Positions 32,724 to 43,102 of a stretch of 64,000 nucleotides of DNA are shown here, piece by piece (the stretch's first letter is position 1; each line of letters starts with the position of its first letter). The DNA is taken from positions 1 through 64,000 of the forward strand of contig JACCXN010000005.1 in assembly GCA_013696965.1 (NCBI GenBank). The letters are read 5' to 3'. This stretch comes from Bacteroidota bacterium. GTDB lineage: Bacteria; Bacteroidota; Bacteroidia; JACCXN01. Made by a program: the position numbers and the translations under genes. Under the pieces are notes generated by a model. That model searched no databases, had not been told where the DNA came from, and was given only the letters and a program-made list of their open reading frames with translations.

Positions 32724-33650
32724 ATGAAAAACAAGGATACTTACTTTGATTTTATTAATTTCGCCTATGGAATAGGCGCTGCCATTGTAATCATTGGTGC
32801 TATGTTTAAATTCCTTGGTTGGGATTATGCCAATGAATTTTTCCTAGTTGGATTAACTACTGAGGCTGTTGTTTTTAGCATATCTGCTTTTGAATTTAAA
32901 AAAAAGAAAACGCCTGCATCAGCGGTAAAAGTTTATCATTGGGAAAATATTTTTCCACAACTTTTAACATCTGAACTACATAATCCGGATGTACTTTCCA
33001 AAGTTGCAGAGGAACAAACTCTGAATACTGTTGCTATAACAAAATCTCTTGGAAATTTTAATCTAGCAATTGAAAAATTAAACGAAGTTAGCAACCAGTT
33101 GGTTCTTGGTATTAACACCATGTCCAATGCTATTAAACAATTGGAAAAAACAACTGAAGATTATTCCATGGAAATGGGTTTGCTTAAAGAAAATGTACAG
33201 CAATTAAATTCTTTGCATAATTCCCATTTAAGAAGTCTAGCCTTAACTCTTCCTTGTTATGAAAAAGAATTTATCAATCTTTCCAAATCCCTTTGCTCTA
33301 TAAATGAAAAATATATTAATCACAATACCAGTTTTGATCATGCTTCCTTGGTTTATGATAAACAGTTTAAGGAGTTAAATGAAAACCTTCAAAAAACAAA
33401 TTCTATTTACTTAAGGCAAATGAACCAATTGGAAGATTCATCCAGCGGATATGAAAAAGAATTCACTATGCTAAATGAAAACCTTTTGAAAATAAATTCC
33501 TTTTATACTGAACATTTATCCAAAAACGGAAGAAATTCTGAGGATTTTGAAAAAGAATTTGCTAGCCTAGGGGCAAACATGTCAAAAGTAAATTCTTTTT
33601 ATACTGATATGCTAGGAGCAGTAGGAAGAATTACTCGCCCTACTGTTTAA
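32724..33650 (+). CDS. GldL-like inner-membrane motor protein
   Basis: This 308-residue GldL/PorL-type protein has two transmembrane helices at about 11-31 and 38-57. A Lys sits in helix 1 (GAMFKFLG, Lys29) and a Glu in helix 2 (GLTTEAVVFSISAFE, Glu47), matching the charged pair seen in proton-driven GldL. The cytoplasmic tail carries five copies of a 32-residue repeat starting at residues 147, 179, 211, 243 and 275 (pattern YEKEF..LN.NL.KINSFY...L). Canonical GldL has similar but fewer, less regular units. It is followed by a gldM-like gene after 19 bp. gldK and gldN are absent. Role: probable stator of a proton-motive-force-driven complex. Confidence 0.85.
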   Translation: MKNKDTYFDFINFAYGIGAAIVIIGAMFKFLGWDYANEFFLVGLTTEAVVFSISAFEFKKKKTPASAVKVYHWENIFPQLLTSELHNPDVLSKVAEEQTLNTVAITKSLGNFNLAIEKLNEVSNQLVLGINTMSNAIKQLEKTTEDYSMEMGLLKENVQQLNSLHNSHLRSLALTLPCYEKEFINLSKSLCSINEKYINHNTSFDHASLVYDKQFKELNENLQKTNSIYLRQMNQLEDSSSGYEKEFTMLNENLLKINSFYTEHLSKNGRNSEDFEKEFASLGANMSKVNSFYTDMLGAVGRITRPTV

Positions 33651-33669: not shown

Positions 33670-34995
33670 ATGGAAGATAACAACAACAGTGATCGTAAGG
33701 CACTCAGGAACAAAATGGTAGGCTTTATGTACTTGATTTTTATAGTTCTTGCGTTCCTTTATATTCCTTCTGATTTTATTGACACAATTCGGGATGTAAA
33801 TACTTCTTTTGAAAAATCTTCAAAAGAAATGAATAGCATGAAAAATTACAATTTCCTGTTAATTAAAGCTGGATTAAAAGCTGATTCTACAATAAACAAT
33901 AAGATAATTGCAATTGACTTTAAAAGAATTTCAGTATTATCCGACAGCATATGCAATCAGCTTGAATTTATTAAGCAAAGGGTTTTGGATGTTTCTGGGG
34001 GAATCAATAAGTATGGTTTTCTAAAAAATGCCAAGGACAACCAATTTACTGATGAAATAATGCTTGAGCAGGGAGTTGCAAAAAAAATTCATACCATGTT
34101 ACATAATTTTAAAACACATATAAATAATGCAGGAACTTCTATCAATCCTGTTTTGCTTGATTCGATTTTACCAACAGATGAATTTGTAAACACCTCCACT
34201 GGGAAGAGTCAAACCTGGGAGAAATTTTATTTTTATAAAATGCCATTAACAGTTTCAATTGCCTTGATTGCAAAATTTCAAAATGATGTAAAACAAATTG
34301 AATTCATGGCAATGGAAGAATATCTTTTTAACCTTAAAGAGAATTATGAATTGACTTTGATTCCAAAAAACAAAAAAACAGAAGAAAACAAGACATTAAA
34401 AAACAACCCAAAAATCCTTGATCCTGAAGCTTACATTAAAAATCCCGGATTTAATATTTTATATGTTGATGTTGACAATCCATTAAAAATTTATCATCCC
34501 GGATTTGGAAATTCTGATATTATTGCGGAGGTATCAAAGGGTGAAATATTTAAAAAGGACAGTCTTTTTTACCTGAGGGTAAATAATGAAGGAATTGTTG
34601 TTGTTACTGCATTTAGTAAAGAAAATAAAAAATTATTGGCGAAGCAGGAATTCCTTGTAAAGAATCTACCTGAACCCTCTGCCTTTATTGCTGAGAGAAA
34701 AGGGGGCAATATTTCTTCAAAAATATTCAAACTGCAAAAGCATATTGAGGTACAAAATGAAATTTCAGATAACAAGGATGGTTACATGGTCAAAAACTTT
34801 TCCTTAATAAGGATTAGTGCAAGTTCGGAAATGCAAAAATCCAAAAACAACCATGGATCTTTTTTCAACTCAAGCACACGTGATTTAATTGATGGAGCTC
34901 AAAGAGGAGATATATTTATTTTTGACAACATCGAGGTAGAAATCCCAGGAGGAAGCATAAAAAAGGTTTCCTCAATTGTATTTACAGTTATTTAA
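33670..34995 (+). CDS. GldM-like periplasmic motor protein
   Basis: This 441-residue protein has one N-terminal membrane helix at about 16-33 (MVGFMYLIFIVLAFLYIPS) after a short cytoplasmic segment, then a long periplasmic part. The segment RNKMVGFMYLIFIVLAF and the following FIDTIRDVNTSFEKSS closely follow the GldM/PorM start. Beta-rich periplasmic domains follow; the last (about 340-441) ends GSIKKVSSIVFTV like the GldM C-terminal domain. Canonical GldM is about 510-520 residues, so roughly one domain's worth is missing. In known systems GldM spans the periplasm and transmits GldL motion to outer-membrane partners. It is flanked by the gldL-like and beta-helix genes. Confidence 0.83.
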   Translation: MEDNNNSDRKALRNKMVGFMYLIFIVLAFLYIPSDFIDTIRDVNTSFEKSSKEMNSMKNYNFLLIKAGLKADSTINNKIIAIDFKRISVLSDSICNQLEFIKQRVLDVSGGINKYGFLKNAKDNQFTDEIMLEQGVAKKIHTMLHNFKTHINNAGTSINPVLLDSILPTDEFVNTSTGKSQTWEKFYFYKMPLTVSIALIAKFQNDVKQIEFMAMEEYLFNLKENYELTLIPKNKKTEENKTLKNNPKILDPEAYIKNPGFNILYVDVDNPLKIYHPGFGNSDIIAEVSKGEIFKKDSLFYLRVNNEGIVVVTAFSKENKKLLAKQEFLVKNLPEPSAFIAERKGGNISSKIFKLQKHIEVQNEISDNKDGYMVKNFSLIRISASSEMQKSKNNHGSFFNSSTRDLIDGAQRGDIFIFDNIEVEIPGGSIKKVSSIVFTVI

Positions 34996-35001
34996 ATATT
35001 T

Positions 35002-36351
35002 ATGGCTAAAATTAATTTGTTTTTTATATTACTGACTGTGATTTCAACCTCAGTTACAAGCTCATTAATAGCAACCAATTCAGAAATAATCGTAACAAAT
35101 TTCATTGAGAAAGATCATACTTTGGAAAAAGGAATTTATATCATTGAAAACAATGTAAAAGTTAGCAAAAATGCAACTCTTACAGTAAAATCAGGATGTA
35201 AACTTTATTTTAGAAAAGGAGCTTCATTAAAAATTGACGGGGGCCTTATTCTTGAGGGAAAACCAAACAACCTAATTGAATTAACTAGTGAGGACAAGGA
35301 AAATGAAGGTTTTGGAATAGTAATATCAGGATCAACCAAGGATAAAGTAATCATTATCAATTACACCAAATTCAGTTATTTGTTAGTTCCATTGAATTTT
35401 GAAAAAAACTGGGTAAGAAAAAAAATAAATATCGAGGATAATGTGTTTGAAAACATTATAACAGGAGAAAAATCAATCATTATCAGATGTCCTGATGAAA
35501 TTACCTCCAGGGATACAATTGAATTTAATTTTTCAAAAAATAATTTCATTCAAAACAACAGCAGTATTTTCATTGAAAACATTGAATCGAATTTGTTAAA
35601 TTTACAATTCAGGTACAACCTTATAACCCAAAACTATTTTTTTGGATTTGAAGTAGGAAGCAGTTTAAACGCTCCTGTTTCTACAACTTACAATAAAAAT
35701 GATCAAGCTTTTCTAGCAGATTTTTCCGGAAATTCTATTTTCAACAATTTTCTATTGCACTCCTCTAATGATACTGTAATTCAGGAAGTGAATTTTGGAA
35801 TTCAAGGACGTGCAGAAAAGTATTCCCTGAATGATAATTATTTTGGAAATAAAAATATTCCACAAATTCAAAAAACTTTTGATCATTTCAGCAATCACCA
35901 GTTTTCGCCTTTTGTCTTTATTGATACTGCTTTACAAGTACCATCAGATTCTGTTCACGGACATATCTGGAAAATTTCGATTAACAATAATGAATTGGTT
36001 CCGAAAAATTTTCTGCCTTTATTAACAGAGCAAAAACTGGAAATTCAGATAAGTTACAATAGATCATTAATCGTTCGCGAAGGAATTAATTATATTACTT
36101 ACTCATTTTTTGATAAAATTGACAATGAATTAAAAACTAAAAGTTTATCTTGTGCTTTAAAACTTAATAAAGAAAATAAATCTATCTCTTTTATTAGCAA
36201 AGATGAGGTATATATTAAGAACCCCAATGGATATTTTTCTATTAATGGTTTAACGGATAATGATGGATTTAGAGTGCCAAAGGTTTATATTGGTAAAGAA
36301 CAATTTAAAGTATTTTTAATTAATAACAACATCAAAATTAATCTTGAATGA
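35002..36351 (+). CDS. Exported beta-helix-like protein in the gldLM-like operon
   Basis: This 449-residue protein has a signal-like N-terminus (residues 1-24), and the following residues look like right-handed parallel beta-helix rungs (NATLTVKSGCKLYFRKGASL, IDGGLILEGKPNNLIELTSE). Asn-rich turns continue to about residue 290, and a distinct C-terminal domain follows (ELVPKNFLPLLTEQKLEIQI). I recognise no named family. It starts 7 bp after the gldM-like stop and its own stop overlaps the next start by 4 bp (ATGA), so it is firmly part of the operon. It occupies the position where gldN would sit but shows no GldN resemblance. Confidence 0.75.
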   Translation: MAKINLFFILLTVISTSVTSSLIATNSEIIVTNFIEKDHTLEKGIYIIENNVKVSKNATLTVKSGCKLYFRKGASLKIDGGLILEGKPNNLIELTSEDKENEGFGIVISGSTKDKVIIINYTKFSYLLVPLNFEKNWVRKKINIEDNVFENIITGEKSIIIRCPDEITSRDTIEFNFSKNNFIQNNSSIFIENIESNLLNLQFRYNLITQNYFFGFEVGSSLNAPVSTTYNKNDQAFLADFSGNSIFNNFLLHSSNDTVIQEVNFGIQGRAEKYSLNDNYFGNKNIPQIQKTFDHFSNHQFSPFVFIDTALQVPSDSVHGHIWKISINNNELVPKNFLPLLTEQKLEIQISYNRSLIVREGINYITYSFFDKIDNELKTKSLSCALKLNKENKSISFISKDEVYIKNPNGYFSINGLTDNDGFRVPKVYIGKEQFKVFLINNNIKINLE

Positions 36352-38330
36352 CAACTAAAGTTAAAATCACACTTTCTGCAGTTTTAGTTTTTCTTATTTA
36401 TTTTTCACCCCTAACTGCATCCAATATTGAAGATGGTTATAAAAAAAGTTTTGAAAAGGCAAATTTTCAACTTTATAATCAAATGTATACTAAGGCCTTA
36501 GATTTGTTTTTAAAAATAGATTCTCTTTATCCGGATAATTCCAACATTAATTTTAAGATTGGCCTTTGTTATTATAATTTACCAACAAATAAATTAAAAT
36601 CGATTCCTTTTTTTGAAAAAGCTGTTAAAAATTTATCTGAAAAATACAACGAGAAAAAAGCTACAGAAAAAAATGCTCCATATATTACCCTTTATTATTT
36701 AGCACAGGTTTATCATTTGAATTATAGTTTTGACAATGCATTAACCACATTTAACCAATTTAAAACCTTTATTGGAACAACTGATATTCAATTAAATAAG
36801 GAGGTTGACAATTACATAAAAATGTGTAATAATGGCAAAATGTTTGTAAACGCTCCAATCCAAATTGAGATTACAAACATAGGAGAGAAAATTAATTCTG
36901 TATATCCTGAATATGCTCCTGTGATATCTGCTGATGAATCAGTACTTATTTTTACTTCCAGAAGACCTGAGAGTGCTGGTGGTAAAAAGACTGAAGATGG
37001 TCAATACTTTGAGGACATTTATATTTCAACTAAAGAGAACGGGGAATGGAGCACACCTGTTAGCATAAGCCCTAATATCAATACCGCGGCTCATGAAGCA
37101 AGTGTAGGACTCTCAGTTGATGGACAGTCTCTACTTTTATATAAGAGTGAAGGACCTGAGGGCAATATTTATATTAGTAAACTTATAGGAGATAAATGGG
37201 AAGTTCCAGTTAAGCTATCAGAAAACATTACAGGAAAATCCTGGGAACCAAGTGCAAGTATTTCAGCAGACGGAAACAGCCTGTACTTTACAAGCGATAG
37301 AAAAGGCGGTTTTGGAGGAAGAGATATTTACAAATCAAAAAAACTTCCCAATGGTGATTGGAGTTTACCAGTGAATATGGGTCCTGAAATTAACACTGAA
37401 TTTGATGAGGACGGCCCTTTTATACACCCTGATGGAAAAACATTGTTTTTTAGTTCAAAAGGACATTCTACTATGGGCGGATTTGATGTATTCTTTAGCA
37501 TTATGGATGAAAACGGAAAATTTCAGAAGCCATCAAATCTTGGATATCCGGTTAACACAACAGATGATGACATTTATTATTCCCTTTCTGCAGATGGTAA
37601 AAGAGCATATTATTCTTCTTCAAAAGAGGGTGGTTTTGGCGAAAAGGATCTTTATTTGCTTAATTTTATTGAACATAAAGAAACTCCTCTTGCACTTATA
37701 AAAGGTACAATTCTGGATGTTTATGGGAATGTACCCCTGGTTGATATTATTGTAACAGATAATGAAACAGAGGAAATTGTAGGTATTTATTACCCAAATA
37801 CTAAAACAGGAAATTATCTTTTTATTTTACCCCCGGGAGCAAATTATAATATCTCCTATGAGGCCGAAGGATATCTTTTTAAATCCGAAAACATTGATGT
37901 TCCTATAGATGCAAACTATTATGTGATTAATCAATCAATCAATCTACAACTAATAGAGATAGGACAAAAAATAGTCCTTAACAATATTTTCTTTGACTTT
38001 GGTAAATCTACTTTACGCAGTACATCAAAAGTAGAACTTCAAAAACTTTATACCCTACTAGAAAAGAATCCATCACTTACTGTTGAAATTTCTGGTCATA
38101 CAGATCATATTGGTTCAAAAGAGATGAACGTTAAGCTTTCACAGGAAAGGGCCCAGGCTGTGGTAACATACATTACAGAAAAAGGAATGGGTGGTTCAAG
38201 ATTGCTTGCTAAAGGTTTTGGAAGTGCGCAACCTCTAACAAATGGAAAGAATAATGATGGGTCTGACAATCCTGAAGGAATGCAGTTAAACAGAAGGGTT
38301 GAAATGAAAATTATAGGGATTAATAAATAA
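36348..38330 (+). CDS. PorE-like TPR/PD40/OmpA protein
   Basis: This 660-residue protein has a signal peptide (1-24), TPR-like helices (about 28-150) and five PD40 beta-propeller repeats (about 175-445, e.g. PEYAPVISADESVLIFTSRR, GGFGGRDIYKS). A carboxypeptidase-regulatory-like domain (about 455-540) and an OmpA C-terminal domain (about 544-660; GHTDHIGSKEMNVKLSQERA and NRRVE) follow. This is exactly the PorE (PG1058) architecture, the peptidoglycan-binding T9SS component of Porphyromonas. Expected location: periplasmic face of the outer membrane, bound to peptidoglycan. It overlaps the previous gene by 4 bp. There is no clear lipobox. Confidence 0.88.
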   Translation: MTTKVKITLSAVLVFLIYFSPLTASNIEDGYKKSFEKANFQLYNQMYTKALDLFLKIDSLYPDNSNINFKIGLCYYNLPTNKLKSIPFFEKAVKNLSEKYNEKKATEKNAPYITLYYLAQVYHLNYSFDNALTTFNQFKTFIGTTDIQLNKEVDNYIKMCNNGKMFVNAPIQIEITNIGEKINSVYPEYAPVISADESVLIFTSRRPESAGGKKTEDGQYFEDIYISTKENGEWSTPVSISPNINTAAHEASVGLSVDGQSLLLYKSEGPEGNIYISKLIGDKWEVPVKLSENITGKSWEPSASISADGNSLYFTSDRKGGFGGRDIYKSKKLPNGDWSLPVNMGPEINTEFDEDGPFIHPDGKTLFFSSKGHSTMGGFDVFFSIMDENGKFQKPSNLGYPVNTTDDDIYYSLSADGKRAYYSSSKEGGFGEKDLYLLNFIEHKETPLALIKGTILDVYGNVPLVDIIVTDNETEEIVGIYYPNTKTGNYLFILPPGANYNISYEAEGYLFKSENIDVPIDANYYVINQSINLQLIEIGQKIVLNNIFFDFGKSTLRSTSKVELQKLYTLLEKNPSLTVEISGHTDHIGSKEMNVKLSQERAQAVVTYITEKGMGGSRLLAKGFGSAQPLTNGKNNDGSDNPEGMQLNRRVEMKIIGINK

Positions 38331-38443: not shown

Positions 38444-41350
38444 ATGAAAAAGCTTTTAATTTTCAACTTTCTTATTCTTTGTTCCACTGTGCTTTTTTCA
38501 CAGAATTTTGACAAAGGACTATTCAAAGAAAAATTCATTGAAGCACAATATCATATTGAATTTGAAAACTATAAACTGGCTCTTCCTATTTTTATTGAAC
38601 TAAATAAAATGGATCCTGAAAATTCAAATGTGAATTTCAAAGTTGGACTTTGCATGATTAAATCAAACATAAGAAAGGCAGAAGCTGTTGGTTTTCTTGA
38701 AAAAGCTGTATTAAATGTTTCACCAAATTACGATGATCTGAATCCCTTTGAAAAAAGAGCCCCGGTTAATGCTCTTTATTACCTTGGATTTGCCTATCAT
38801 ATTGCCTATAAATTAGATGAGGCAATTGCAACTTTTGAAAAATTCAAAAGCGTAATCAGCAAAAAAAATTATATGGTTGCTGACGCAGAAAGGTCAATAG
38901 TCATGTGTTTAAACGCTAAGGAATTCATAGGTAACAAAAAAGAATATATAATTGATTGTTTAAGTGACTCCATTAACACTCCTTATCCTGAATACAGCCC
39001 TGTTGTTTCCCTGGATGAATCAACCCTTATTTTTACAAGTAGAAGGGCTGAAGAATCAGGAAGCATCGCTGAATCCATGCATAATGAAGATATTTATATT
39101 TCTTATAAAGACAATAATGGTATTTGGTCGGCAGCAAAATCAATAGGCACAAGCATTAACACCATGGATCATGAGGCAAGTATTGGACTTTCTGCTGATG
39201 GACAAAAATTGTTTATCTATAAAAGTGATGATGGTGGTAGTATTTGGATGAGCGAACAGCTAAGTGAGAGCTGGTCTGTACCACAAAAGCTGGATTTTGA
39301 TGTTAATTCCGAACATTGGGAAACGCATGCAGTAATAACTGCTGAGCAGAAAACAATCTATTTTGCAAGCAACAGGCCAGGTGGCCAAGGTGGCAGGGAT
39401 ATTTGGATGTGTAAGAAATTGCCAAATGGAAAATGGGCAAAAGCACAAAATTTAGGAGCGCAGATAAACACAAAACATGATGAGGATGCTCCTTTTATAC
39501 ACCCCAATGGTAAAACAATTTACTTTAGCTCTGACGGTCATAAAACCATGGGAGGATTTGATATATTTTATTCTGAAATACAGGAAGATGGAAAATGGAG
39601 CAGCCCAATAAACATGGGTTATCCAATAAACACAACGGATGATGATATTTATTTTGTCACATCAGGTGATGGAAAAAGAGGTTATTTTTCTTCCCTTCGT
39701 GAGAACTGCATTGGAGAAAAAGATATTTTCATGGTTACAATTGATGATATTCAAGTGGAATCAATTACTGTACTGAAAGGAAAAATCACCATCGATGGAG
39801 ATGAAAAACTTCCCTCCGGTGCCCTTATTTATGTAACTGATGTAGAAACAGGAATTGTGGTTAACGAATCAAGGCCTAACCCTAGAACAAGTGTTTATAC
39901 ACTTGCTTTATCTCCAGGCGAGCATGGCAAAACATACTCTATTAGTTATTCTGCCGAAGGATTTGAACCTATTACCGCAACCATTGAAATTGAAGCAGGA
40001 ATGGGTTACCAGGAAATTGAAAAAGAATTGTTCCTTCACCCAATTAATTTCGAAAGCAAAACCAAAGGTACAGTTGCACTTTCCGGAACAATTAAAAACA
40101 GGCAAGGAGAATTTATTTCCGCCACAATTTCTGTAATTGATAACATTACTGGTGAAGAAATTTTTACAGCCCTAACAAAAGGTACTGAGGCACCCTATTA
40201 TTTTGTTTTGCAATTGGGGAAAAATTACAATATATCCTATGAAGCTGAAGATTACCTGTTTCATTCAGAAAATCTAAACATTCCAAATAAACCAGAATAT
40301 TCAGAAATTAAAAAGAATATTATTCTTGAAAAAATAGAAACAGGAACCAAAATTGTTTTAAATAATATTTTCTTTGATCATAATAAATCCATATTGCGAA
40401 AGGAATCTAATGTTGAATTGGAAAAATTGTATACTTTACTAAACAAAAGACCTGAATTAAAAATTGAAGTTGGCGGCCACACAGACAGTAAAGGAAACGC
40501 TGAGGTAAATATGGTTTTATCCAAAGCAAGAGCTCAGGCAGTTGTTGATTACCTGACAAAAAATGGAATAAACAGATCACGCCTTGTAGCAAAAGGTTAT
40601 GGAAAAGATGCTCCTATTGCTCCGAATAATTTAGCCAATGGAAAACCGGATTTAGATGGTATGCAATTAAACAGGCGTGTAGAGTTTAAAATTCTTGATT
40701 ATACAAAAGCTGAACTGGAAAAAGTTAGAGAAAATCAAACTAATACGGCAGAAGTTGAAACCATAATAATTGACAACAGAAGTGACCTGGTAACCAAACC
40801 AGTTAATTACACTACTAAATCCCCGTTATATGGTGTTCAAATCGGAGCTTTTCAAACATCTTTACCGAACAACGATTTCCCAAATGTAAAAAACGTTCAT
40901 AGTTTTATTGATAATGATGGAATGATTCGATATGTCATTGGTAGTTTTAACATAAGGAGCCAGGCTGAAACCCTTAAAAAAGCTGTTGTTGAAGCGGGAT
41001 ACAAGGATGCTTTTATTGTAGACGTGAATAAGGAAAAAAAGTTTACAAATGAAGTTGTTCATGAAAAAAAGCCGAAATCTCTGGAAAAAGTTGAATACAT
41101 GGTTCAGGTTGGTGCATACTCCACTACAATAACTGCCCAGGCAGCAAAGAGTATGGTAGAAATTGACGGTATTATTGAAAAACAAAACGGAGAGTTAATG
41201 CTCCTAACGGTTGGATCTTTCTCTAACATAGAAAGTGCTGAAAAATTAAAAAACGAACTTGTTGCAAAAGGGGTTCAGGAAGCTTTTGTAATTGCTTTTT
41301 TAAATGATAAAAAAATAACGCTACAGGCTGCAAAAGAATTTGCAAAATAA
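38444..41350 (+). CDS. PorE-like TPR/PD40/OmpA protein with two SPOR-like domains
   Basis: This 968-residue paralogue of the preceding protein has a signal peptide (about 1-19), TPR-like region (20-150) and PD40 repeats (175-455). It carries two carboxypeptidase-like domains instead of one (about 462-550 and 555-640) and an OmpA C-terminal domain (about 642-755; GHTDSKGNAEVNMVLSKARA). Two SPOR-like domains complete it, at about 794-870 (YGVQIGAFQTS) and 883-960 (YMVQVGAYSTT), each with an RYVIGSF- or LLTVGSF-type strand. SPOR domains normally bind denuded glycan strands, so the protein appears to grip peptidoglycan twice. It starts 113 bp after the previous gene. Confidence 0.88.
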   Translation: MKKLLIFNFLILCSTVLFSQNFDKGLFKEKFIEAQYHIEFENYKLALPIFIELNKMDPENSNVNFKVGLCMIKSNIRKAEAVGFLEKAVLNVSPNYDDLNPFEKRAPVNALYYLGFAYHIAYKLDEAIATFEKFKSVISKKNYMVADAERSIVMCLNAKEFIGNKKEYIIDCLSDSINTPYPEYSPVVSLDESTLIFTSRRAEESGSIAESMHNEDIYISYKDNNGIWSAAKSIGTSINTMDHEASIGLSADGQKLFIYKSDDGGSIWMSEQLSESWSVPQKLDFDVNSEHWETHAVITAEQKTIYFASNRPGGQGGRDIWMCKKLPNGKWAKAQNLGAQINTKHDEDAPFIHPNGKTIYFSSDGHKTMGGFDIFYSEIQEDGKWSSPINMGYPINTTDDDIYFVTSGDGKRGYFSSLRENCIGEKDIFMVTIDDIQVESITVLKGKITIDGDEKLPSGALIYVTDVETGIVVNESRPNPRTSVYTLALSPGEHGKTYSISYSAEGFEPITATIEIEAGMGYQEIEKELFLHPINFESKTKGTVALSGTIKNRQGEFISATISVIDNITGEEIFTALTKGTEAPYYFVLQLGKNYNISYEAEDYLFHSENLNIPNKPEYSEIKKNIILEKIETGTKIVLNNIFFDHNKSILRKESNVELEKLYTLLNKRPELKIEVGGHTDSKGNAEVNMVLSKARAQAVVDYLTKNGINRSRLVAKGYGKDAPIAPNNLANGKPDLDGMQLNRRVEFKILDYTKAELEKVRENQTNTAEVETIIIDNRSDLVTKPVNYTTKSPLYGVQIGAFQTSLPNNDFPNVKNVHSFIDNDGMIRYVIGSFNIRSQAETLKKAVVEAGYKDAFIVDVNKEKKFTNEVVHEKKPKSLEKVEYMVQVGAYSTTITAQAAKSMVEIDGIIEKQNGELMLLTVGSFSNIESAEKLKNELVAKGVQEAFVIAFLNDKKITLQAAKEFAK

Positions 41351-41527: not shown

Positions 41528-43102
41528 ATGCGCTATTCCTTTTCAATACTATTTTTAATTTCCATTTTATCTTTTTCTTACTTGGCGGCTTCAGCCCAAA
41601 CTGATCCACGGGAAGCAAAAGAACATTATAATAAAAGAAATTATGTAGCTGCAGTGTTGGTTTTTGATAAACTTATTAAAGAAGAGCCAGGTAATTCGGA
41701 TTACCTTCATAAAGCGGGCATTTGTTATCTTAAAACAAATATTGATAAAACCAAGGCCATCCCCTATCTTGAAAAAGCAGTGAAAATTGTAAAAGTAGAC
41801 CCTGAAGCATTTTTTGATTTAGGGTTAGCCTATCAGTATGCTTATCGTTTTGATGATGCTATTAAAAGTTTTGAAAAATATAAAACTTTTATAGCAGGGA
41901 AAGACATTGAATTAAAAAAAGCTGCAAGACAAATAGAAACTTGCTACAATGCAAAGGAATTAATCAAATATCCATTGAATGTAACATTTGAAAATATGGG
42001 TCCAGAAATAAATACTGAGTATCCTGATTACTATCCCTTTATTGCTCCGGATGAAACCTTCTTGATTTTCACTACGCGTAGAAAAGGAGCTCCTGCGGTA
42101 ATGGAATTTGATGGGTTCTACTCTTCCGATATTTATATATCAAATGCATTGAATGGAGAATTCACAAAATCCAAGTCTATTGGTAATTCAATAAATTCCA
42201 GTTTTGATGAGCAAGCAGTAGGTATGTCTGGAGACGGAAATCAGCTTTTTGTATATATTGATAATATTAAGGAATTTGGAGATATTTATCTCTCTGAAAG
42301 AAAGCCAGGAGGTACGTATAAGAAACCAGTAATAATAGGCGAAGCTGTAAATTCAAAGTCTTTAGAAACATCTGGCACCATTTCATACGATGATAACATT
42401 CTTTTTTATGCAAGCGATAAACCCGGAGGTTTTGGCGGCAGGGACATTTACATGACAAGAAAGTTACCAAATGGTAATTGGGCCCAGTCTCAAAATTTGG
42501 GTCCAAATGTTAATTCTGCTTATAATGAAGATTTTCCTAATATTCTTTCAGATGGAAAAACCCTTTATTTTGCATCTGAAGGGCATATGGGTATAGGAGG
42601 TTATGATATATTTCATACTCAATGGAATGAAGAATCCAATACCTGGTCTACACCAAAAAATGCCGGCTACCCTTTAAATACTCCAGAGGACAATCATATG
42701 ATAACATTTACCGAAGATGGAAAACATGGCTATACCTCTTTATTAAGAAAAGGTGGGTATGGAGATCTGGATATTTACAAAGTAACTTTTAATGAGGTAG
42801 AAGCTCAACAAACTGTAATTAGAGGGATATTATCCTCTCTTGATACACTTCAACCAGTTACTGCACCGTTAATAACATTGTTTGACTTAAATAATTCTGA
42901 TGCAGAGCCCAATGTTTATTCAATAAATCCAAATAATAACAGTTGTACAATTATTGTTGTGCCCGGGAAATATGAGCTTGTAATAGAAGCAGATGGATTT
43001 GATGATTACAAGGAAAAACTAGTGATTTTTGATAAGGACGGTTGGCAAGCGCAAATTGAAAAATATTTAATAATGAAGCCAACAAATTACAAAATAAAAT
43101 GA
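41528..43102 (+). CDS. TPR/PD40 protein lacking the OmpA domain
   Basis: This 524-residue third member of the series has a signal peptide (1-24, ending AASAQ), TPR helices (about 25-140) and PD40 repeats (about 165-425; TSGTISYDDNILFYASDKPG, GGFGGRDIYMTRKLPNG). One carboxypeptidase-like domain follows, and the protein ends without an OmpA or SPOR domain. The shared motif GGFGGRDIY...KLPNG shows common ancestry with the two upstream proteins. It follows after 177 bp and may have its own promoter (TATTTTTG at 41511-41518, unusually close to the ATG). It could act as an adaptor that does not touch peptidoglycan. Confidence 0.85.
   Translation: MRYSFSILFLISILSFSYLAASAQTDPREAKEHYNKRNYVAAVLVFDKLIKEEPGNSDYLHKAGICYLKTNIDKTKAIPYLEKAVKIVKVDPEAFFDLGLAYQYAYRFDDAIKSFEKYKTFIAGKDIELKKAARQIETCYNAKELIKYPLNVTFENMGPEINTEYPDYYPFIAPDETFLIFTTRRKGAPAVMEFDGFYSSDIYISNALNGEFTKSKSIGNSINSSFDEQAVGMSGDGNQLFVYIDNIKEFGDIYLSERKPGGTYKKPVIIGEAVNSKSLETSGTISYDDNILFYASDKPGGFGGRDIYMTRKLPNGNWAQSQNLGPNVNSAYNEDFPNILSDGKTLYFASEGHMGIGGYDIFHTQWNEESNTWSTPKNAGYPLNTPEDNHMITFTEDGKHGYTSLLRKGGYGDLDIYKVTFNEVEAQQTVIRGILSSLDTLQPVTAPLITLFDLNNSDAEPNVYSINPNNNSCTIIVVPGKYELVIEADGFDDYKEKLVIFDKDGWQAQIEKYLIMKPTNYKIK

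Follow-up and report, generated by a model that had tools for sequence, protein, structure and literature searches.

The GldLM/PorLM motor of the T9SS and of gliding is the closest described counterpart of the locus reported here; for both processes, it has yet to be settled how an inner-membrane motor of this kind does its work at the outer membrane. In its usual setting, this motor operates with a GldK/N track or a PorK/N ring and with a disulfide-linked PorG; Liu et al. 2025 (PMC12635249) show that a disulfide joins the Cys in the periplasmic C-terminal tail of PorG to GldK, which is part of the moving track. Within GldLM, Arg9 pairs with Glu49 of GldL, and one shaft chain at a time is thought to be engaged, as set out in a second report (PMC12239597). 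Here we describe a gene, termed X, that follows genes for GldL-like and GldM-like proteins in a 64,000-nucleotide stretch of DNA from a Bacteroidota bacterium, hereafter called the window. The X locus resembles the GldLM/PorLM motor in having GldL and GldM homologues that carry the motor Glu and Arg and, in relatives only, an eight-stranded PorG-family barrel as outer-membrane client. Unlike the known systems, it contains neither GldK nor GldN and has X in their place, the barrel of the relatives is joined by peptide fusion with the tail Cys missing, and its motor belongs to a separate GldL clade that is additional to the ordinary T9SS. A search of the open-access literature turned up neither a ringless GldLM nor a fusion of X to PorG. 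We consider it more likely than not that a second GldLM-type proton motor, one without the GldK/GldN ring or track, has X as its dedicated partner on the outer-membrane side.

Results

The window encodes, in order, a GldL-like protein, a GldM-like protein, X and three PD40 proteins, two of which carry OmpA domains. The genes are as follows.
32724 to 33650, + strand: altL, the GldL-like member of the second motor lineage, 308 aa; TIGR03513 at 107 bits (cut-off 68.3) and PF22827 (GldL_N)
33670 to 34995, + strand: altM, GldM-like periplasmic shaft, 441 aa; PF12081, PF21602 and PF12080 above cut-off; transmembrane Arg kept
35002 to 36351, + strand: X, 449 aa; beta-helix and Ig-like protein, probably exported; homologues lie directly 3' of GldM-like genes
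36348 to 38330, + strand: TPR, PD40, CarboxypepD_reg and OmpA protein, PorE/CHU_0125-like; PF07676 and PF00691 above cut-off, TPR and CarboxypepD_reg weak
38444 to 41350, + strand: another PorE/CHU_0125-like protein, which carries OmpA and SPOR domains; candidate member of the operon
41528 to 43102, + strand: third TPR-PD40 protein, without OmpA; candidate member of the operon

The altL product exceeded the curated GldL/PorL cut-off, and the altM product fell below that for GldM/PorM (TIGR03517, 129.7 bits; equivalog cut-off 180); its GldM_1st, 3rd and 4th domains in Pfam each exceed their own cut-off. The gene downstream begins with an ATG at 36348-36351, confirming the 4-bp overlap with X in the original prediction, and the upstream gap, given there as 7 bp, measured 6 bp because the GldM-like stop codon ends at 34995. 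The product of this downstream gene shares the domain order of the PorE/CHU_0125 family (PD40, OmpA) but scores far below both curated cut-offs (NF053607, 325 bits; NF052230, 284 bits); a neighbor of this kind was seen beside X in the window only, and genome G078 has a different barrel-OmpA gene. Inspection of the open reading frames with Pfam and NCBIfam revealed no gldK or gldN in the operon. For X itself, Pfam and NCBIfam gave zero matches at E<=1, and a search of PDB sequences gave chance-level matches only. X was established as a real gene family by its homologues together with a low dN/dS among its relatives (0.06-0.11 in three of five pairs, with dS not estimable in the other two), which ruled out a chance open reading frame or a pseudogene.

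The AlphaFold2 model of X, built from a 26-row alignment (pLDDT 85.1, pTM 0.85), divides the protein into the following parts.
35005 to 35067, + strand: residues 2-22, hydrophobic, signal-peptide-like helix without a lipobox Cys (AlphaFold2 secondary structure and sequence)
35083 to 35901, + strand: residues 28-300, right-handed beta-helix (AlphaFold2 model, VIA-align)
35410 to 35418, + strand: residues W137-x-R139, candidate contact or fold site, invariant in all 26 aligned X sequences
35965 to 36291, + strand: residues 322-430, Ig-like beta-sandwich (AlphaFold2), followed in relatives by a linker and a PorG-family barrel

The expectation of beta-helix rungs in the N-terminal half was borne out as to their presence, and their extent had been underestimated: they run from about residue 28 to 300 in the model and are followed by the Ig-like part. 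The best match in VIA-align was 7dmk_C, a PL6 lyase (Z 19.1, rmsd 4.4, 254 residues aligned), with other beta-helix proteins scoring close to it; the nearest folds were PL6 lyases, AlgG and tailspikes, and Foldseek against the PDB returned no match at E<=0.001. Export of X is probable, judging from the signal-like N-terminal helix, and its signal region contains no Cys that could form a lipobox, unlike that of GldK, an FGE/SME-fold lipoprotein. Only G105, W137, R139, N211 and N249 are invariant in all 26 rows, with no Asp, Glu, Lys or His among them, and to judge by sequence these residues do not appear to resemble a glycan-lyase site. Profile-profile comparison (hhalign) gave a probability of 4.1% for GldN, where the signal region alone aligned, and of 1.3% for GldK, and neither family was matched in NCBIfam, so that a relationship to either was ruled out by sequence, as had been anticipated. 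GldN and GldK were also absent among the fold-library matches listed for the model, which is not itself an exclusion.

In a class sample of 395 Bacteroidia genomes, the X profile (E<=1e-15) detected the gene in 14, and a GldM-like gene lies directly upstream in 13 of these carriers; in the remaining one, G227, the contig ends 182 bp upstream. In a phylum sample of 395 genomes, a strong full-length match was found in the genome of origin only (581.6 bits); 150 genomes matched X at E<=0.001, the best score besides the genome of origin being 58.5 bits, and judged by score alone these weak matches probably reflect generic beta-helix similarity. A further search gave, in addition to the genome of origin and G035, four weak partial matches (L005-L008), which were rejected, with no gldM neighbor within a locus of about 3 kb. 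A scan of named genomes with the second-motor GldL alignment yielded 52 loci, 38 of the second motor, all from records titled as MAGs, and 14 others; the search patterns were derived from the second-motor GldL, and these counts are therefore biased by the query and do not form an unbiased census. Nine of the 38 end before the position of X, leaving 29 informative loci, and in 28 of these X directly follows the GldM-like gene in the same orientation, with gaps of -23 to +15 bp, compared with none of the 14 other GldL loci. The single exception, L145, has altM and no X in 2.6 kb of translated downstream sequence. GldK or GldN was found at none of the 38 second-motor loci, and both were found at 13 of the 14 others. 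FastTree placed altL in a single clade (40 versus 27 sequences, split support 0.991); the Glu of the second transmembrane helix is retained in 40 of 40 altL sequences and the transmembrane Arg in 13 of 13 altM sequences. X is thus partnered with a GldL/GldM lineage of its own, in which the usual ring proteins are missing. The predicted co-occurrence with the GldM-like gene held in both searches, X had no GldN-like match, and its homologues were not located away from gldLM-like genes. The conserved order of X and the motor genes could also stem from common regulation. Two loci (L060:3953-6967 and L167:6756-9832) were considered for membership of this group and then set aside; each holds a further GldL-GldM pair without GldK/N that adjoins a barrel-OmpA gene, with no X, and GldN lies elsewhere in both genomes.

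The genome that contains the window also holds a complete gldKLMN cluster on another contig, with two adjacent gldN genes (L012:5434-7350), and encodes ordinary PorG and SprA. The notion that X stands where gldN would be expected in the T9SS operon therefore had to be abandoned. GldN, SprA and ordinary PorG are kept in all 14 X carriers checked, indicating that the second motor is an extra machine rather than a replacement of the T9SS.

In relatives, X is fused to an eight-stranded PorG-family outer-membrane barrel. This was the case in all 26 unbroken relatives that reach the barrel (673-876 aa), 22 by direct match to the barrel profile and the other 4 because they are homologous along their full length to this fused family; the count leaves out L144, which is cut, and L158, which has a frame shift. 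In the latter (L158:10192-12397), the fusion is split into two overlapping reading frames where relatives are intact, and the shift may be real or an assembly error. The predicted link to the outer membrane applies to these relatives: the X protein of the window ends after the Ig-like part, is the only complete X seen without a barrel, and has no lipobox, and a barrel-profile search of the window's open reading frames gave no match. The barrels of the fused relatives belong to the PorG family (NF052316, DUF6089 PF19573), from which these proteins differ in carrying an X part of about 430 residues in front and in having no C-terminal tail with Cys, whereas the X of the window lacks the barrel altogether. 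NCBIfam PorG matched six of six fused barrels scanned (E 1e-16 to 1e-37, 60.8-128.7 bits), none of which reached the equivalog cut-off of 130 bits; the barrel of G078 scored 132.6 bits in a separate scan, and the single type B fusion scanned (see below) matched PorG weakly (16.2 bits). Among PorG-like barrels, the fused ones mostly form their own branch, with that of L120 separate. A model of the fusion from L129 (pLDDT 79.3, pTM 0.57) showed X, a linker at residues 434-493 with pLDDT <50, and eight strands at residues 504-745 forming an OmpA/OprF-like barrel (Z 17.9-18.3). Fusion to the barrel in nearly all relatives suggests a direct mechanical link from the inner-membrane motor to the outer membrane.

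If the fusion replaces the disulfide of ordinary PorG, the tail Cys would be expected to be lost. We examined the last 25 residues of 26 fused barrels, including the piece from L158 and excluding L130, which runs off the contig end. Cys was absent in 25; the lone exception, L157, has a Cys near the end that is placed in the last strand. The best ordinary PorG of each carrier, by contrast, has the tail Cys in 14 of 14 cases, as do 29 of the 31 stand-alone PorG-like proteins compared. Two more stand-alone proteins without Cys came from a further set; all four that lack it score below the PorG cut-off, and two are from the genome of the window. These two stand-alone barrels (L065 and L066, on C74 and C97) are possible detached partners of X; as candidates for the detached barrel of X in that genome, they were rejected because they do not group with the fused barrels.

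The second-motor loci fall into two types. Type A has one GldM-like gene, or two in L121. In type B (27 loci, comprising L114-L119 and those among L122-L168), a small coiled-coil-like gene, present in 27 of 27, is accompanied by GldL, two adjacent GldM paralogues (M1 and M2) and then the fusion. In the single locus scanned, neither Pfam nor NCBIfam gave a useful match for M1 or M2; by profile, both aligned to GldM over their length (M1, 95.7%, E 8.5e-9; M2, 85.7%, E 5.5e-6). The motor Arg, located eight residues before the transmembrane Tyr, is present in 14 of 14 GldM proteins of other loci; it occurs in none of 26 M1 sequences and in 20 of 20 M2 sequences by pattern, with a 21st (L127) recognised by eye. 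The presence of Arg in M2 and its absence from M1 point to a heterodimeric motor axle. The Myxococcus A-motility motor with AglQ/AglS resembles type B in having a single outer motor subunit and two paralogues of the inner shaft (PMC9389320); AglQ and AglS differ in belonging to the MotB-type family rather than to that of GldM, one type B paralogue lacks the motor Arg, and an AglQ-AglS pairing is not established there. In the type A locus L121 (8679-11845), both GldM-like genes carry the Arg, making it a possible intermediate. Large genes occur 3' of X in relatives: in type A, L045:5213-7930 has an AsmA-like gene (weak match) 3' of X-PorG, and some type B loci also have large genes at this position. 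The gene after the fused X in L117 (8812-11256), the one case scanned, specifies a protein with SprB repeats and a C-terminal T9SS signal of the CHU_C type IX kind, which hints at movement of an outer-membrane or surface protein as the task of the system. L122, L138 and L153, labelled Chitinophaga pinensis, are MAGs with loci like those of uncultured Bacteroidota, and the label seems doubtful.

Discussion

In the mechanism we propose, the GldL-like and GldM-like proteins would form motor and shaft, as in the T9SS, presumably with proton drive, and the shaft would contact X and push or turn its beta-helix/Ig part in the periplasm. In relatives, X would continue through a flexible linker into the eight-stranded PorG-family barrel, a single polypeptide thereby carrying force to the outer membrane in place of the ring and the disulfide-linked PorG, and the barrel may itself move. 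Because the barrel part is missing in the window, X would there have to pass force to another partner, perhaps the adjoining PorE/OmpA-like proteins. As its task, the machine may supply T9SS export with additional force, or it may move a protein of the outer membrane or cell surface. The fuller version of this proposal, that the shaft of a second GldLM motor without ring or track drives a beta-helix protein and its outer-membrane client in one polypeptide and that in one branch the shaft is an obligate M1/M2 heterodimer with a single proton-coupling Arg, strikes us as about evenly balanced between right and wrong.

Other readings of the locus deserve consideration. X occupies the place behind the shaft gene that the ring protein GldN has in gldKLMN, and beta-helices can stack; X subunits might accordingly polymerise into a new track or ring that replaces GldK/N, with a barrel on each subunit in relatives. 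X has no lipobox, however, and with barrels on all subunits a track would be expected to become crowded, which makes polymerisation improbable in our estimation. A function of X as a beta-helix enzyme that acts on or binds polysaccharides in the periplasm, with no tie to the motor beyond the common operon, appears very improbable: its nearest folds do belong to PL6 lyases, AlgG and tailspikes, but the five invariant residues include no Asp, Glu, Lys or His, and both the close linkage to the motor and the fusion to a PorG-family barrel speak against an enzyme. Somewhat more credible, though still unlikely, is a role as an accessory of the ordinary T9SS, in which the second motor would push X-PorG against the SprA translocon and supply extra or condition-specific energy for export. 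The retention of SprA, GldN and ordinary PorG in every carrier checked is consistent with such a role, as is the proposed function of PorG in conveying force to the translocon (PMC12635249); the lack of GldK/N at the second-motor loci and the mostly separate branch of the fused barrels argue in the opposite direction.

For the lineage of the window, the barrel may have been lost, leaving X as a soluble protein that connects the shaft to PorE/OmpA-like proteins able to bind peptidoglycan, with the motor anchored to, or working on, the cell wall. The absence of a barrel, the PD40 and OmpA domains of the gene that overlaps X, and the barrel-OmpA gene that follows the fused X in G078 are in line with this arrangement. 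PorE-like neighbors were recognised in the window only, however, and the stand-alone PorG-like proteins elsewhere in the genome could be the lost half of X, so that we give this possibility no more than a minor chance.

Returning to X as the dedicated partner of a second motor, a natural system that retains motor and shaft, does without the large ring or track, and has the outer-membrane barrel fused to one periplasmic partner would shrink the problem of how the motor reaches the outer membrane to three or four proteins. The exchange of a disulfide for a peptide fusion independently hints that PorG has to stay covalently attached to the component that the shaft moves. With its single Arg, the M1/M2 pair bears on the use of two axle helices by 5:2 motors, in which five GldL surround two GldM. 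If true, the one-Arg heterodimeric shaft would offer a natural experiment on how many active axle helices, one or two, such a motor requires.
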